From: Xenococcaceae cyanobacterium MO_167.B27
GTDB taxonomy: Bacteria > Cyanobacteriota > Cyanobacteriia > Cyanobacteriales > Xenococcaceae
DNA length: 62,949 bases
Assembly: GCA_030065935.1 (NCBI GenBank)
Contig: JASJCP010000027.1
Coordinates: forward strand, 1 to 62,949
Direction of reading: 5' to 3'
The translations under genes were made by a program, and so were the position numbers. Of the stretch, positions 31,055-61,101 are shown one piece after another. A model generated the notes under the pieces. That model saw only the letters and a list, made by a program, of their open reading frames with translations, was not told the origin of the DNA and made no database searches. Each line of letters opens with the position of its first letter. The stretch's first letter is position 1.

Positions 31055-32257
31055 TTAGAGCCCAGATTCTTGGTTCAACGAGTCTCCATAACCCAGCAGG
31101 TTTTCACCAACTGAGCTAGAGGAAGTCTCTCCCCAAGCGTGAGTTAGGGCGTGCCCCGCCCTACGCAACCCTCGTTGCAAAATAATTATGGCTGACTCAA
31201 TATCTCGATGTTCTTGATGCCCACAAGTACATTGATGGGTTCGAGTTGATAGAGTTTTCTTCACCAATCTCCCGCATTTAGTACACTCTTGACTTGAGTA
31301 GGCAGCAGGAACAGGAATGGCTATCTTACCATATTTACTGGCAAAATACTCTAGCCAAGTCCGAAACTGATACCAGCCAGCGTCATTAATTGATTTAGAG
31401 AGCTTTCCTATCTTTACCATGTTCGCTATTCTTAAATCTTCATAGGCTATCAAATCGTTAGATTGAATTAAGCGGAGTGCTAATCTTTTAGCGTGTTCTT
31501 TTCGCTGCCTACTTACTTTTAAGTGTTTGCGAGCATAACGGTTTAGAGCTTTCTTATAGTTGTTGGTTTGGGGTTGTCCTTTGCGGAATTTTTTAGATTT
31601 TTGACGATTTAAACGATTAAGCTGCTTTTCTCCTGTGCGATAAAACCTAGGGTTAGGCTCTTGATGTTTGTTGCTGTCAGAGTAAAAATATTCTAAGCCA
31701 ACATCTAGACCTACTGCTTTTTTAGTAGGAAGTGTGTCTATTTGAACATCCACAGAAACACAAAATTGACAGTAATAACCATCTGCTCGCCTAATTAAAC
31801 GAACTCTTTTAATTTGTTTCTCGTCATAGAAAGCTAAATCCCAAGTACCAACCAACTTAAACTTACCGATATTATTTTTGTCAGTAAATTGAATATGTTT
31901 TGGATCTAAAAGTTTCCAACACTGAGTTTTAAACTCAACAGAACGACTGTTCTTTTTAAACCGTGGATAACCTTTTTTACCTGGTACTTTCTTTTTGCAA
32001 TTGTCATAGAATCTAGCTATGGACGACCAAGCTCGTTCAGCACTAGCTTGTCTAGACATAGCGTTAAGTTTGCTGGCAAACCAATACTCTTTAGCTAACT
32101 GTTTTGTGTACTTGCTTAAGTCAGCACGAGATACTTTTGAATTGTCCATCCAAAATCTAACGCATTTATTTCTAATAAATTGCGCTGTTCGGATAGCTTC
32201 ATCAATAGCTTTATATTGGTGTTGTTTGCCTTTTAACTTAAACTCTAGAACAATCAT
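31055..32257 (-). CDS. tnpB: TnpB RNA-guided nuclease (IS200/IS605 or IS607 accessory gene)
   Basis: The 400-residue protein has the TnpB layout: a WED/REC-like N-terminal half, then a split RuvC with Asp185 (VGLDVG), Glu273 (AYEDL) and Asp352 (HRDIESA). The zinc finger is Cys325, Cys328, Cys343 and Cys345 (CTKC, CTC). All three catalytic acids are present, so it may be active, although the usual Asn after the last Asp is Glu. TnpB proteins cut DNA guided by an RNA made from the 3' end of the gene and the adjacent element end. Here that end would lie in 30999-31150. No TnpA partner is adjacent. Confidence 0.9.
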   Translation of the reverse strand: MIVLEFKLKGKQHQYKAIDEAIRTAQFIRNKCVRFWMDNSKVSRADLSKYTKQLAKEYWFASKLNAMSRQASAERAWSSIARFYDNCKKKVPGKKGYPRFKKNSRSVEFKTQCWKLLDPKHIQFTDKNNIGKFKLVGTWDLAFYDEKQIKRVRLIRRADGYYCQFCVSVDVQIDTLPTKKAVGLDVGLEYFYSDSNKHQEPNPRFYRTGEKQLNRLNRQKSKKFRKGQPQTNNYKKALNRYARKHLKVSRQRKEHAKRLALRLIQSNDLIAYEDLRIANMVKIGKLSKSINDAGWYQFRTWLEYFASKYGKIAIPVPAAYSSQECTKCGRLVKKTLSTRTHQCTCGHQEHRDIESAIIILQRGLRRAGHALTHAWGETSSSSVGENLLGYGDSLNQESGL

Positions 32258-34428: not shown

Positions 34429-35940
34429 TCACCTTGTCTCCCATTCCTTAAAATCCAATAATTCTAGTTGAATGTATTTGATTTTATTAGGATTACCAGA
34501 CTCACTAACCAACGTCGGTGATAACTTCCTCTTGGGAGAATCTGTTGATTCAGATTTGGTCGTAACTTTCGGGCTGACCACCCGTAGGGTATCTATACCA
34601 AGCTTTTCTTTCCCACGTTGCGCCAATACACATCCTGCCTGAGTATCAGCATCTTCGTGGTGGGAGCAATTTTCACAGACAAACTTTTCCTTGTCCCGAT
34701 TTTTGGGGCTAACATACCCACATTGATGGCATTCTTGAGATGAACCACGTGGATTTACTTCAATTACCCAGTTCCCTAATTTAGCTGCTTGATGTTTGGT
34801 TTTTTGTCGCAGTGAGTACCAGGCAGCGTCAGAAATAGCTTTGTTCAATTGTGATTTAGCTTTCTGATTATTCCTTAAATACCTACCAGTTTCAGGACAG
34901 AGTTTAGGTTTGCATCGTCGCTTCATACCTTGAATATTTAATGCTTCAAATGAGATAACATCAGCCATAGAAGCTATTTTTTTCCCTAACTTCCATTGAA
35001 AATCCTGACGACGACGACGAATATCTCTATGAACTTTGGCTACAACTTTTCCCGCTTTTTTCCAATTGTTACTACCTTTTTTCTTACGAGATAAACGCTT
35101 TTGTCTTATTCTTAACCTTCGTTCTAATTTCTTACTGATATTCGGGTTAGGAATTGTCTCACTCGTGCTGAATGCAGCTATTTTTTTAATGCCGACATCA
35201 CAACCAATGATAGTATTTAACTCATCTTCAACTTTTGGACAATAATCAGGAATCGTTCGATCTCTTAGTAATACAGATACGTACCAATCCTCTATATCAA
35301 GAGTTATTGTTACTGTCCTAATCTCCCAGTTATCACCAATATTTCTAGATTTGGCAAATTTCATCCAGCCTAGTTTTGGGAATTTGATTCGATTCCCTTG
35401 TATTTTCACTGTCCCTGGCTTAAATTCAATACCTATATCACGAGTTTTCTTGAATCTAGGAAATTTAGCTCGTCCTGAAAAGAAATTGTTAAATGCCTTA
35501 TCTTGATGTCTTAAGGCTTGCTGCAATACATCAGAACTGACATCTTCATACCAAGGTTTCGTTTGTCGCCAATTAGTAGAAAAAGATGAATGAATCTCAA
35601 AACTAGATCGTCGAGGATTAAAAGGAGGACAAGACTGACGGGGTTTCCCCGTCAGCTTAATATGTCCGTTTTTATTTTTATTTCCACGTCTATGGGGGGG
35701 GTTATCTTCTTTCCAAAATTCTCCTTTAGATGCGGACTTATTTACCGAACAAGTTAAGGGGGTAGCAACTCCCTTACTTCTGAGATTACAAAACTCACCC
35801 TGTTTGAAACTATCGTGATAAGTGTCTATTCGGTCAGCTAAACATACATTAAGCAGTGAACGTATTTTGCTTTGCCATTCACTGAGTCTAGTAGATTGTG
35901 CAGAAGAGGGGTATAACTTAAAGCGATATGTAACTTGCAT
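34429..35940 (-). CDS. tnpB: TnpB RNA-guided nuclease of the IS605 element
   Basis: The 503-residue protein keeps the RuvC acids Asp248 (GCDVG), Glu332 (FEALNI) and Asp432 (EDADTQAG), and the zinc finger CHQC/CENC. I start at ATG 35940 (MQVTYRFKLYP) because GGAGG lies five bases upstream. A longer frame to 36159 runs back across tnpA and is not real. Residues about 52-125 are a Pro/Lys/Arg/Ser-rich insert not usual for TnpB, coded by DNA with a perfect nine-base-pair hairpin (35635-35655) and a run of eight G (35694-35701). The gene may therefore have captured a repeat. The C-terminal tail after the RuvC is also long. Confidence 0.88.
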   Translation of the reverse strand: MQVTYRFKLYPSSAQSTRLSEWQSKIRSLLNVCLADRIDTYHDSFKQGEFCNLRSKGVATPLTCSVNKSASKGEFWKEDNPPHRRGNKNKNGHIKLTGKPRQSCPPFNPRRSSFEIHSSFSTNWRQTKPWYEDVSSDVLQQALRHQDKAFNNFFSGRAKFPRFKKTRDIGIEFKPGTVKIQGNRIKFPKLGWMKFAKSRNIGDNWEIRTVTITLDIEDWYVSVLLRDRTIPDYCPKVEDELNTIIGCDVGIKKIAAFSTSETIPNPNISKKLERRLRIRQKRLSRKKKGSNNWKKAGKVVAKVHRDIRRRRQDFQWKLGKKIASMADVISFEALNIQGMKRRCKPKLCPETGRYLRNNQKAKSQLNKAISDAAWYSLRQKTKHQAAKLGNWVIEVNPRGSSQECHQCGYVSPKNRDKEKFVCENCSHHEDADTQAGCVLAQRGKEKLGIDTLRVVSPKVTTKSESTDSPKRKLSPTLVSESGNPNKIKYIQLELLDFKEWETR

Positions 35941-35998
35941 TGCCCCTCCTAACTCAATTTGATAAACTAGGACTAAGTATATCACATTAGCTATAGTA

Positions 35999-36403
35999 AT
36001 GCAAAAGTTAAGTGGAGGAACAGTATATGACTTATCTATACATTTAGTACTAGTTACTAAATACCGAAGAAAAGTCATTAATTCCGCTATGTTGAAACGA
36101 TTAGAAGAGATATTTGCTGATACTTGTCGCAAGTGGGACTGTGAGCTAAAAGAGTTCAACGGCGAGGATAATCACTGTCATTTGTTAATAGCTATTAATC
36201 CTAAAGCTCAAATTAGTGCTTTAGCTAACAATCTCAAAACTGTTAGCTCAAGACTAATCAGAAAAGAATTCCCCGATAGATGCGCTCAGTTTTACCACAA
36301 GCCTGTTTTTTGGAAAATTGGTTATTTTGTTTCATCTACTGGTGGTGCTAACTTAGAAACGGTAAAGCGTTATATTCAACATCAAAATTCCCCCAGTAAA
36401 TAA
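35999..36403 (+). CDS. tnpA: IS200/IS605-family Y1 HUH transposase
   Basis: The 134-residue single-strand transposase has the HUH metal-binding motif His59-Cys60-His61 (DNHCHLL) and catalytic Tyr125 (TVKRYIQ). It starts GGTVYDLSIHLVLVTKYRR, typical of the family, and its length is standard. It would mobilise the element and the divergent tnpB through single-strand intermediates that recognise the subterminal hairpins. Confidence 0.95.
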   Translation: MQKLSGGTVYDLSIHLVLVTKYRRKVINSAMLKRLEEIFADTCRKWDCELKEFNGEDNHCHLLIAINPKAQISALANNLKTVSSRLIRKEFPDRCAQFYHKPVFWKIGYFVSSTGGANLETVKRYIQHQNSPSK

Positions 36404-42964: not shown

Positions 42965-43687
42965 GTGGGTCAGAAAATACATCCAGTTGGGTTTCGTTTA
43001 GGCATTACCAAAGAGCATCAATCTTGCTGGTATGCTGACACTAAGCGTTATCCAGAGCTTCTTCAAGAAGACCGTAAAATTAGAGATTATGTCTCCAAAC
43101 AACTCAGCAATGCGGGCATTTCTCAAGTCAAAATCGAACGCAAAGCCGATCAAATCGATCTAGCAATTCATACCGCTCGCCCTGGTGTAGTAGTAGGTCG
43201 TGGTGGTACAGGGATTGAAAAATTACGTACCGAACTACAAGAAGCCGTAGGGAACAATCGTCAAATTCGGATTAACGTAATTGAAGTTTCCCGAGTTGAT
43301 GCGGACGCTGCTCTGGTTGCAGAATATATTACTCAACAACTAGAACGTAGGGTATCTTTTCGTCGTGTAGTGCGCCAAGCAATTCAACGGGCGCAAAGAG
43401 CAGAAGTACAAGGCATAAAAATTCAAGTGAGCGGTCGTCTCAATGGCGCAGAAATTGCCCGAACTGAATGGGTGAGAGAAGGGAGAGTGCCACTGCATAC
43501 CCTAAGAGCAGACATTGACTACGCCTACCGCACAGCTTTAACCATTTACGGAATTCTGGGGGTTAAAGTTTGGGTGTTTAAAGGAGAAATTATCCCAGGA
43601 CAAGAAGATACTTCTGCTTCTACTCCTGCTCAAACACCCCGTCGCCAACAGCGTCGTCGTCAGAAATTTGAAGACCGTTCCGAGTGA
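42965..43687 (+). CDS. rpsC: 30S ribosomal protein S3
   Basis: The 240-residue S3 has the KH domain ([16 protein letters not shown]) and the C-terminal helicase-like domain. The start is GTG 42965 with AGAGGAA upstream. It is normally followed directly by rplP. Here a 519-base non-coding insert separates them, starting right after the S3 stop codon. Confidence 0.98.
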
Positions 43688-44206
43688 CATACCTCTATGC
43701 CTTCAGGCTAGAGGCTTCTTGCTTCATCCCGACATATCTAGACAAGAACAACAAATGTTGAAAACAAGCCCCCGAAAGAGGTCGATCCACAAGCTTTTTA
43801 CTACTCTTGCAAGTAGTCCGTTCCCGATAGCCCATCGGTACGGTGAAACACAAAAGTCTCTAACCGACATGCTTGGATATTTTACCCATACGAGCTTTTC
43901 CGTACAGAACCCATTATCCAGTTTTCAAGGTACTTATCTCCTACTGCTTGGTTTTCGCTTTATGTAGGACAAACTTATTGTACAACAGATGGATGAAGTG
44001 ATGCTCCAAGAGCGCGAAAAACTAGGATACAAGGCGAAAAATTAACTGTAGAGCATCGTTTCCGCCCCTCGATCTATGAAGTTATGGGTCAAAATTATAA
44101 AGACTCTACCCATAGGTTATCCCTCTCGCTTTCATCCCATACCATAAAGGGATATGGGTATTCTCGCTCGCAAGTATAAATATCAGCAACTAGCAAATAA
44201 CTCACT
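43688..44206 (-). mobile_element. Transposase-less IS605-type insert between rpsC and rplP
   Basis: The hairpin CCTCTA-T-GCCT-TC-AGGC-TAGAGG (43692-43714) has the same architecture and GCCT/AGGC core as the right-end hairpin of the tnpB element at 59729-59749, and is followed likewise by CTT...ATCCC. Near the other end TACCCATA (44106-44113) and TCCCATA repeat as ATATGGGTA (about 44136-44161), like a folded left end. Neither strand encodes TnpA or TnpB. A frame at 43668-43967 has no coding character. The minus strand reading toward the hairpin may be a relic guide-RNA region (inferred). The insert does not interrupt a gene but lies inside the operon. Confidence 0.65.
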
Positions 44207-44626
44207 ATGCTAAGTCCTAGAAGAACTAAATTTCGTAAACAACAACGTGGTCGCATGAGAGGAATGGCTTACCGAGGTAGCACTCTCAACTTTGGGGACT
44301 ACGCCCTCCAAGCTACAGAGCCTTCTTGGATTACCTCTCGTCAAATCGAAGCAGCCCGTCGAGCCATGACTCGTTATGTTCGTCGTGGTGGTAAAATCTG
44401 GATTCGGATCTTTCCTGATAAACCAGTTACCATGCGCCCTGCTGAAACCAGGATGGGTTCTGGTAAAGGTTCTCCCGAATATTGGGTAGCAGTAGTCAAA
44501 CCAGGAAGAATCATGTTTGAGATGGCAGGAGTTCCTGAACCAGTAGCTAGAGAAGCAATGCGTTTAGCTGCACAAAAGTTACCCATCAAAACCAAGTTTA
44601 TTACTCGCGAAGAGGAGTATATCTAA
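44207..44626 (+). CDS. rplP: 50S ribosomal protein L16
   Basis: The 139-residue L16 begins [19 protein letters not shown] and has [17 protein letters not shown] and [17 protein letters not shown]. It lies at the A/P-site region of the 50S subunit. The gene follows the IS605-like insert, so read-through of that insert or an internal promoter must feed it. Confidence 0.99.
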
Positions 44627-60960: not shown

Positions 60961-61045
60961 CCCGCTTTGAGTGGCGGGAAGGGGGCTTCAATAGACCTTG
61001 AATATGTTGCTCAGTCAAACAACCTCTGTTTTCAAGCCCCCTCCC
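60961..61045. repeat. Overlapping inverted repeats between tnpB and moaD
   Basis: CCCGC (60961-60965) can pair with GCGGG (60974-60978). AGGGGGCTT (60980-60988) pairs perfectly with AAGCCCCCT (61034-61042) across a 45-base loop, extended by GGG/CCC. The GGG at 60976-60978 can join only one fold at a time. This is probably the left end of the tnpB element, but it could also form the 5' leader of moaD. Confidence 0.5.
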
Positions 61046-61101
61046 GGCGATTTGCAACATTCCTCTCCTCCCTAAAGTAAGGAGTCTCTCGGAGATTTAA
61101 G

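Follow-up and report, generated by a model that had tools for sequence, protein, structure and literature searches.

Trans-encoded standalone ωRNA loci have reportedly been described for IscB by Altae-Tran et al. in 2021. For TnpB, the known guide RNAs come from the 3' end of the tnpB gene (as set out in passages of PMC10097598), and ISDra2 goes in on the 3' side of a fixed target, which is not duplicated and doubles as the transposon-associated motif (TAM), while the RNA lies at the right end (passages of PMC8612924). According to PMC11061315, RAGATH-18-derived reRNAs are structured RNAs used by IS607 TnpB, and a PATE-like element of Halanaerobium, as presented in part of PMC7290912, is a tnpB-less IS605 derivative that retains the last 58 nt of tnpB together with the right end. 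Elements that carry a guide RNA and no tnpB are not described in the passages considered of PMC10278001, PMC7290912, PMC12558985, PMC10711439, PMC11870625, PMC10097598 and PMC8612924, nor was a description found among the titles and abstract openings listed from the open-access literature, and one may be published elsewhere. The locus analyzed here is probably an element of this kind, namely an IS200/IS605 derivative lacking both tnpA and tnpB whose sole gene specifies a guide RNA, and which would be parasitic on TnpA and TnpB supplied in trans.

The locus lies in the window (the whole stretch of 62,949 nt that was analyzed), where rpsC (42965-43687) and rplP (44207-44626) are separated by 519 nt. 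A preliminary description of this DNA had taken the two genes to be normally adjacent and the 519 nt to be an insert, and comparison with relatives bears this out. A search for rplP in 60 genomes, the own one among them, gave matches in 58. When the loci of the own genome and 29 relatives were compared, the rpsC-rplP gap of the relatives ranged from -1 to 102 nt and was 27 nt in all three congeners (G001-G003; completeness 76-81%); the long spacer is therefore not general, the insert being missing from this gap in 29/29 relatives examined, the three congeners among them. The borders of the element follow from three things: comparison of the filled site with the congeners' empty site, where the junction reads GA|A TAA; the TTTAT target; and a right end, GTCAC, that family copies have in common with it:

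43684-44175, minus strand: whole element, 492 nt, with its left end at 44175 and its right end at 43684.
43682-43687, plus strand: last codon and stop of rpsC, GAG TGA (GAA TAA in the congeners), the last four bases being supplied by the element.
44176-44206, plus strand: ancestral A TAA (codon remainder and old stop) and the 27-nt spacer before rplP, reading A TAA ATATCAGCAACTAGCAAATAACTCACT; of the 27 spacer positions, 3 are different in G001.

Read on the minus strand, the junctions are TTTAT, then the element ACTTGCGAG...GTATGTCAC, then the flank TCGGAACGG. A single 492-nt insertion between GA and A TAA, without target duplication, is the simplest account of the filled and empty sites. Because the element's last four bases re-create both the Glu codon (GAG) and a stop (TGA), the RpsC protein is unchanged, and the insertion would have been tolerated because A-TAA has been exchanged for G-TGA at the gene end; an element of this kind can thus enter the stop codon of a gene and leave the protein as it was before. 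The span originally proposed, 519 nt from the rpsC stop onward with a hairpin right behind it, keeps its hairpin (43692-43714) but not its borders: the element also includes the last base of the final rpsC Glu codon and the TGA, and 44176-44206 is ancestral.

The ends of the element are those of an IS200/IS605 derivative, as had been proposed earlier, with neither tnpA nor tnpB between them:

44176-44180, minus strand: TTTAT target, the would-be TAM.
44133-44175, minus strand: left end with a subterminal hairpin (44136-44156); over 39 nt it matches its counterpart in the tnpB element of contig C129 at 87%.
43692-43714, minus strand: right-end hairpin, read from the sequence; family copies have the same layout.

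Both subterminal hairpins are present, insertion is 3' of a fixed target of 4-5 nt that is not duplicated, and the ends are common to tnpB-carrying elements, as seen in the match to C129 at the left and in a match of the right part to a tnpB locus of genome G016 (L177; 80% over 45 nt); no single tnpB element was found with a strong match to both ends of the own copy. A GCGAGYGRGAATACC-like motif at the left end recurs in family copies, and among nine left-end contexts found by one motif (copies and tnpB elements together) TTAT stands directly upstream in eight and TTTAT in six; the ninth, on contig C154, is truncated by the contig end and reads ATTAT. In G016 two near-identical copies occupy different places, and TTTAT precedes both. 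Comparison of multi-copy genomes by eye gives other targets for other subfamilies (TCAT in G117, TTAC in G163).

Most of the minus strand next to the right end is taken up by a predicted RNA, described with three models: R1 was built from 11 of 23 listed copies (those without nested inserts or with short ones), R2, for the 5' domain, from 18 of the same 23, and R3, for the 3' domain, from 11:

43684-43970, minus strand: predicted standalone guide-type RNA (ωRNA-like), with the R1 core at 43715-43932 and a 5' end guessed from the P1 stem at 43940-43968.
43870-43932, minus strand: 5' domain (helices P2/P3) of the standalone RNAs, 75.7 bits with R2.
43718-43842, minus strand: 3' domain (P5, P6, P7), common to tnpB-linked guide RNAs, from R3 and from alignment to the tnpB 3' ends on contigs C153 and C154 and, marginally, C129.
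43977-43982, minus strand: TACAAT, a -10-like box and candidate promoter immediately before the RNA.

The 287-nt RNA region of the own copy folds at -88.7 kcal/mol (z -3.26), a value equaled by none of 200 shuffles, and the whole 519-nt gap gives z -2.03, with 2 of 100 shuffles as good. Across copies the structure covaries. In alignment A1 (11 copies, MAFFT), from which the structure of R1 was derived, 26 of 41 pairs show a two-sided change; in alignment A3, which was fitted to R1 and retains all 44 matches at E 1e-6 from 43 hand-chosen sources (32 genomes), 39/41 pairs do, a result reached by none of 500 shuffles. Paired cells make up 94.8% in A3 vs 69.3% in shuffles and 27-43% in slid versions, and cells with a two-sided change number 413 vs 126 in shuffles. 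The insert is thus real and its predicted RNA structure not a matter of chance, with a fold that beats shuffles and a structure that covaries across genomes. The own copy scores 220 bits with R1, a model built with that copy included.

The strand of the RNA can be read from the same alignments: G-U/U-G cells outnumber A-C/C-A cells by 223 vs 15 in A3 and by 67 vs 4 in A1, and the RNA strand therefore fits the minus strand of the window. Together with the position of the box, this finding agrees with the earlier view that the element lies antisense to the operon; the ribosomal operon is transcribed in the direction opposite to that of the RNA, which counts against an element whose sole product is a guide. 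A TA...T box (at least 4/6 positions as in TATAAT, its first base 32-70 nt before the core) is found in 38/44 copies, compared with a mean of 19.9 and a maximum of 29 in 200 shuffles, and would be consistent with transcription from the element's own promoter.

HEARO-type RNAs are included in Rfam. In the window no Rfam family, those of HEARO and the IscB-IsrB ωRNA included, scored as high as its gathering cut-off, and no match to RAGATH-18 occurred in the window or the family loci examined. At lax thresholds an unrelated nematode snoRNA model matched at 44044-44140 within the insert (E 0.036, 23 bits vs a cut-off of 80), a xanthine riboswitch model, likewise unrelated, matched sub-threshold in rpsC, and unrelated snoRNA and miRNA models matched sub-threshold in 2/9 family loci.

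Some copies of the RNA contain nested repeats. By tblastn, residues 388-421 of the C129 TnpB match copies in L074, L080 and L089; as a remnant of tnpB this match was rejected, the stretch being by eye a separate palindromic repeat, GCGGTCTTGG...CCCCCATGAG, that is nested in RNA loops and also in the C129 tnpB, where one such palindromic repeat falls within the stretch that encodes the C-terminal part of the protein (L073, about 1860-1990). The RNAs of L080, L076, L083, L081 and L091 contain palindromic repeats as well, this one and others, frequently within a loop at AAGC. Palindromes of another kind, ~80 nt long (GGGGGCTT...AAGCCCCC), lie near or inside IS605-type left ends (window about 60965-61050, the left end of L120, and L080 about 2120-2200).

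The 3' domain links the RNA to the guide RNAs of tnpB genes. With R1, the tnpB 3' ends of the own genome score 44 bits (C153), 40 bits (C154) and a marginal 18.7 bits (C129; E 0.018), and a 49-bit match in G016 falls inside the tnpB locus L177; among the matches listed, tnpB-linked RNAs thus score 19-49 bits vs 220 for the own copy, a gap that counts against the guide reading in that compatibility with a given TnpB is only presumed. R3 matches 42 places in the own genome, at least 8 of them, judged by position, at tnpB 3' ends (C153, C129, C154, C69, C147, C119, C31, C196), and one more at the window's own tnpB at 31055-32257 (31.6 bits). That gene, on the minus strand, is the third tnpB of the window, intact and encoding 400 aa; its 3' end (GGGCGGGGCACGCCC...CTCGTTGAACCAAGAATC) looks by eye like another guide-RNA class, which also has standalone relatives (e.g. 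L014, L022).

Similar kinship is seen within other genomes. A tnpB-less 352-nt copy in G117 matches five tnpB elements of the same genome over its left 42-50 nt (92-95%) and its right 64 nt (86-89%), and a G016 copy has its last 109 nt in common with L177 (75%, 6e-13); a mononucleotide-shuffle control for these end matches gave 0 hits in 100 shuffles. The 5' domain behaves otherwise: when R2 was run on 50 tnpB loci or tnpB 3' stretches no match fell below E 5, and the domain has no counterpart there, which again counts against reading the RNA as a guide and nothing else. By its 3' domain the RNA is homologous to RNAs at tnpB 3' ends, and its position, strand and predicted fold would have the structured RNA end at the element's right end with the guide position in the flank. 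The element has no tnpB whose 3' end the RNA could overlap, and the RNA is therefore called ωRNA-like and not a classical ωRNA.

TnpB genes are missing from the surroundings of most family copies. Neighborhoods were counted on 58 loci found with R1 and 34 further loci by means of 23 TnpB queries, which divergent TnpBs may escape; the further loci comprise 24 exact-pattern loci from named genomes (Xenococcaceae, Crocosphaera and Symploca MAGs, and Baaleninema simplex PCC 7105) and 10 R2 matches in five genomes, and the two sets overlap at some sites (e.g. L234 is G012:C86, L242 is G001:C318 and L255 is G012:C136). No TnpB match lay within ~1.5 kb in 52/58 R1 loci, and 33/34 of the further loci had none nearby, the remaining match being ~2.7 kb away. 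As for the other six R1 loci, in L115 and L120 the RNA overlaps a tnpB 3' end, L096, L099 and L112 hold short TnpB stretches only, and in L113 (G000:C64:43022-43163) an RNA of the standalone type stands head to head with a long TnpB match ~300 nt away, either as a divergent arrangement or as two neighboring elements.

Possible helpers in trans are abundant. In the own genome PF07282 is matched at 150 places or more (150/150 scored candidates matched), and there are 43 matches to PF01797 (Y1), some of which are fragments. One transposase gene lies in the window itself:

35999-36403, plus strand: Y1 transposase (tnpA) gene, a possible helper in trans (Pfam PF01797, 5e-42).

It belongs to a divergent tnpB/tnpA pair at 34429-36403 (Y1_Tnp 5e-42), a possible source of transposase in trans. 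The preliminary description had likened the right-end hairpin of the insert to that of the tnpB at 59.7 kb. The general kind is indeed the same, with a similar GCCT..AGGC core by eye, but the terminus differs; as best partner the 59.7-kb tnpB is unsupported, neither R1 (E up to 10) nor R3 (E up to 0.01) having a match there, and better-matching ends than those of that tnpB were found elsewhere in the genome (C129, C154, C69). To judge from its sequence, a tnpB of the C154 or C69 type is the likelier partner. The C154 TnpB is intact (384 aa, with PF12323, PF01385 and PF07282), its left end is identical over 28 nt, 4 of them target, to the family copy G012:C86, and its right end reads GTGTGTCAC; the right ends of C154, C69 and C196 are GTGTCAC, near the ATGTCAC of the insert. 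The weak match of the own copy to C154 DNA (best 21 nt, E 0.05) counts against C154 as the partner.

Beyond this locus the family is widespread. DNA of the insert was matched in 14/60 near genomes (own included). At E 0.01 R1 has 41 matches in the own genome, and at E 0.001 it has one or more in 70/148 genomes of the order (own included; 67/141 good ones), tallies that take in some tnpB-linked RNAs; R2 finds the 5' domain in 39/244 genomes of the phylum (own included), 38 in the order and 1 elsewhere in the class, a figure that measures the spread of the standalone form more conservatively. Equal-scoring standalone copies within one genome (at least 6 at 111.7 bits in G117, on C1; several pairs in G163) suggest recent spread. 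Matches of the middle of the insert elsewhere in the own genome had been entertained as a second element; this idea was dropped, and the matches are read as the 5' leader of sister copies because an R1 match directly adjoins those at C62, C39, C47 and C195. Three others (C58, C153:10850, C221:19889) are without an R1 match among the matches listed.

If the RNA ends in the flank, its guide would be the antisense of the rpsC end:

43664-43683, minus strand: flank, would-be guide (rpsC end, antisense); TTTAT with its first 17 nt was searched.

With up to 2 mismatches this pattern occurs at 0 places in the own genome and at one place per congener, the empty rpsC site, where the match is exact in G002 and G003 and has a single mismatch in G001; a reversed control pattern had no match in four genomes of the genus. 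It follows that, if the RNA guides a TnpB, the uninvaded allele is the target and the filled allele is not. The suggestion made earlier that the insert carries a guide-RNA scaffold for a TnpB encoded elsewhere is thus supported on two counts, both drawn from sequence comparison: the 3' half is homologous to guide RNAs of real tnpB genes, and TTTAT joined to the right-end flank corresponds to the empty site of relatives. A cycle can be envisaged in which a Y1 TnpA encoded elsewhere moves the element in single-stranded form and inserts it 3' of TTTAT; RNA would be made from the element's own promoter and end in ~16-20 nt of flanking DNA, the guide; a TnpB encoded elsewhere (the best candidates here being those of C154 or C69) would load the RNA and cut the empty site (TTTAT plus flank), whether left by excision or present on an uninvaded chromosome; and repair from a filled copy would restore or spread the element.

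Other explanations of the insert have to be weighed against this one. A passive relic or MITE, moved by TnpA and carrying an RNA that is a functionless leftover of an internal tnpB deletion, would agree with the lack of a protein gene, with the tnpB-less PATE-like derivative described for Halanaerobium (part of PMC7290912) and with own-genome matches that look partial (e.g. C274); it is nevertheless rather unlikely, given the two-sided changes in 39/41 pairs over 44 matches and 32 genomes, and given a 5' domain absent from 50 tnpB loci and a -10-like box, neither of which is expected from a plain deletion. The same extra domain and box would be compatible with a trans-acting RNA of another sort, a functional decoy that occupies and dampens TnpB (or TnpA) and does not guide it. 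Retention of the junction between right end and flank where a guide needs it, and of the target motif at the left junction, makes a decoy unlikely.

The remaining two explanations concern this site in particular. From its position inside the operon, and from an RNA that would run antisense into rpsC, the element might be thought to serve the host, by antisense control of rpsC or as an attenuator between rpsC and rplP; the rpsC-rplP gaps of 29 relatives lack it, and family copies adjoin various other genes, so that host regulation is very improbable. An assembly artefact is hardly credible, even though the draft genome comprises 282 contigs: the insert is internal to a contig of 63 kb and is flanked by intact genes, it is the sole full-length match in that genome, and it ends as family copies end.

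The preferred reading, a guide-RNA element dependent on proteins supplied in trans, extends to the family with less assurance. It is an even call whether these copies constitute an order-wide class of cyanobacterial mobile elements with a guide RNA as sole gene, in effect a gene drive that lacks a nuclease gene, parasitizes the TnpA and TnpB of its relatives and is equipped with a dedicated 5' RNA domain that would enable production and loading in trans. If such elements exist, the nuclease would be a common resource that cheaters can exploit, guide and nuclease having come apart in a way reminiscent of CRISPR systems, and a large natural set of guide RNAs acting in trans, unexplained 5' domain included, would be available for work on TnpB; multi-copy carriers (G117; Baaleninema simplex PCC 7105) render the idea testable.

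Of the known systems, the standalone ωRNA of IscB resembles the insert in having a guide RNA gene apart from the nuclease gene; the nuclease family differs. In the 3' domain the insert RNA is like the cyanobacterial tnpB-linked RNAs found here. Likeness to the ωRNA/reRNA of the ISDra2 type, as far as passages of PMC8612924 and PMC10097598 describe it, consists in the position at the right end, in a 3' end that would enter the flank as guide, and in a left-end target that corresponds to the TAM; unlike the ωRNA/reRNA known from those passages, which overlaps the 3' end of tnpB, the insert RNA has no tnpB and comes with its own -10-like box and an additional 5' domain. The RAGATH-18-derived reRNA of PMC11061315 adjoins the tnpB of IS607, whereas the insert RNA is likewise structured but has no adjoining tnpB. 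With the PATE-like element, as portrayed in passages of PMC7290912, the insert has in common ends without a transposase and presumed mobilization in trans; yet the PATE-like element is described there as an ends-only remnant, whereas the family of the insert carries a long conserved RNA gene in many genera.
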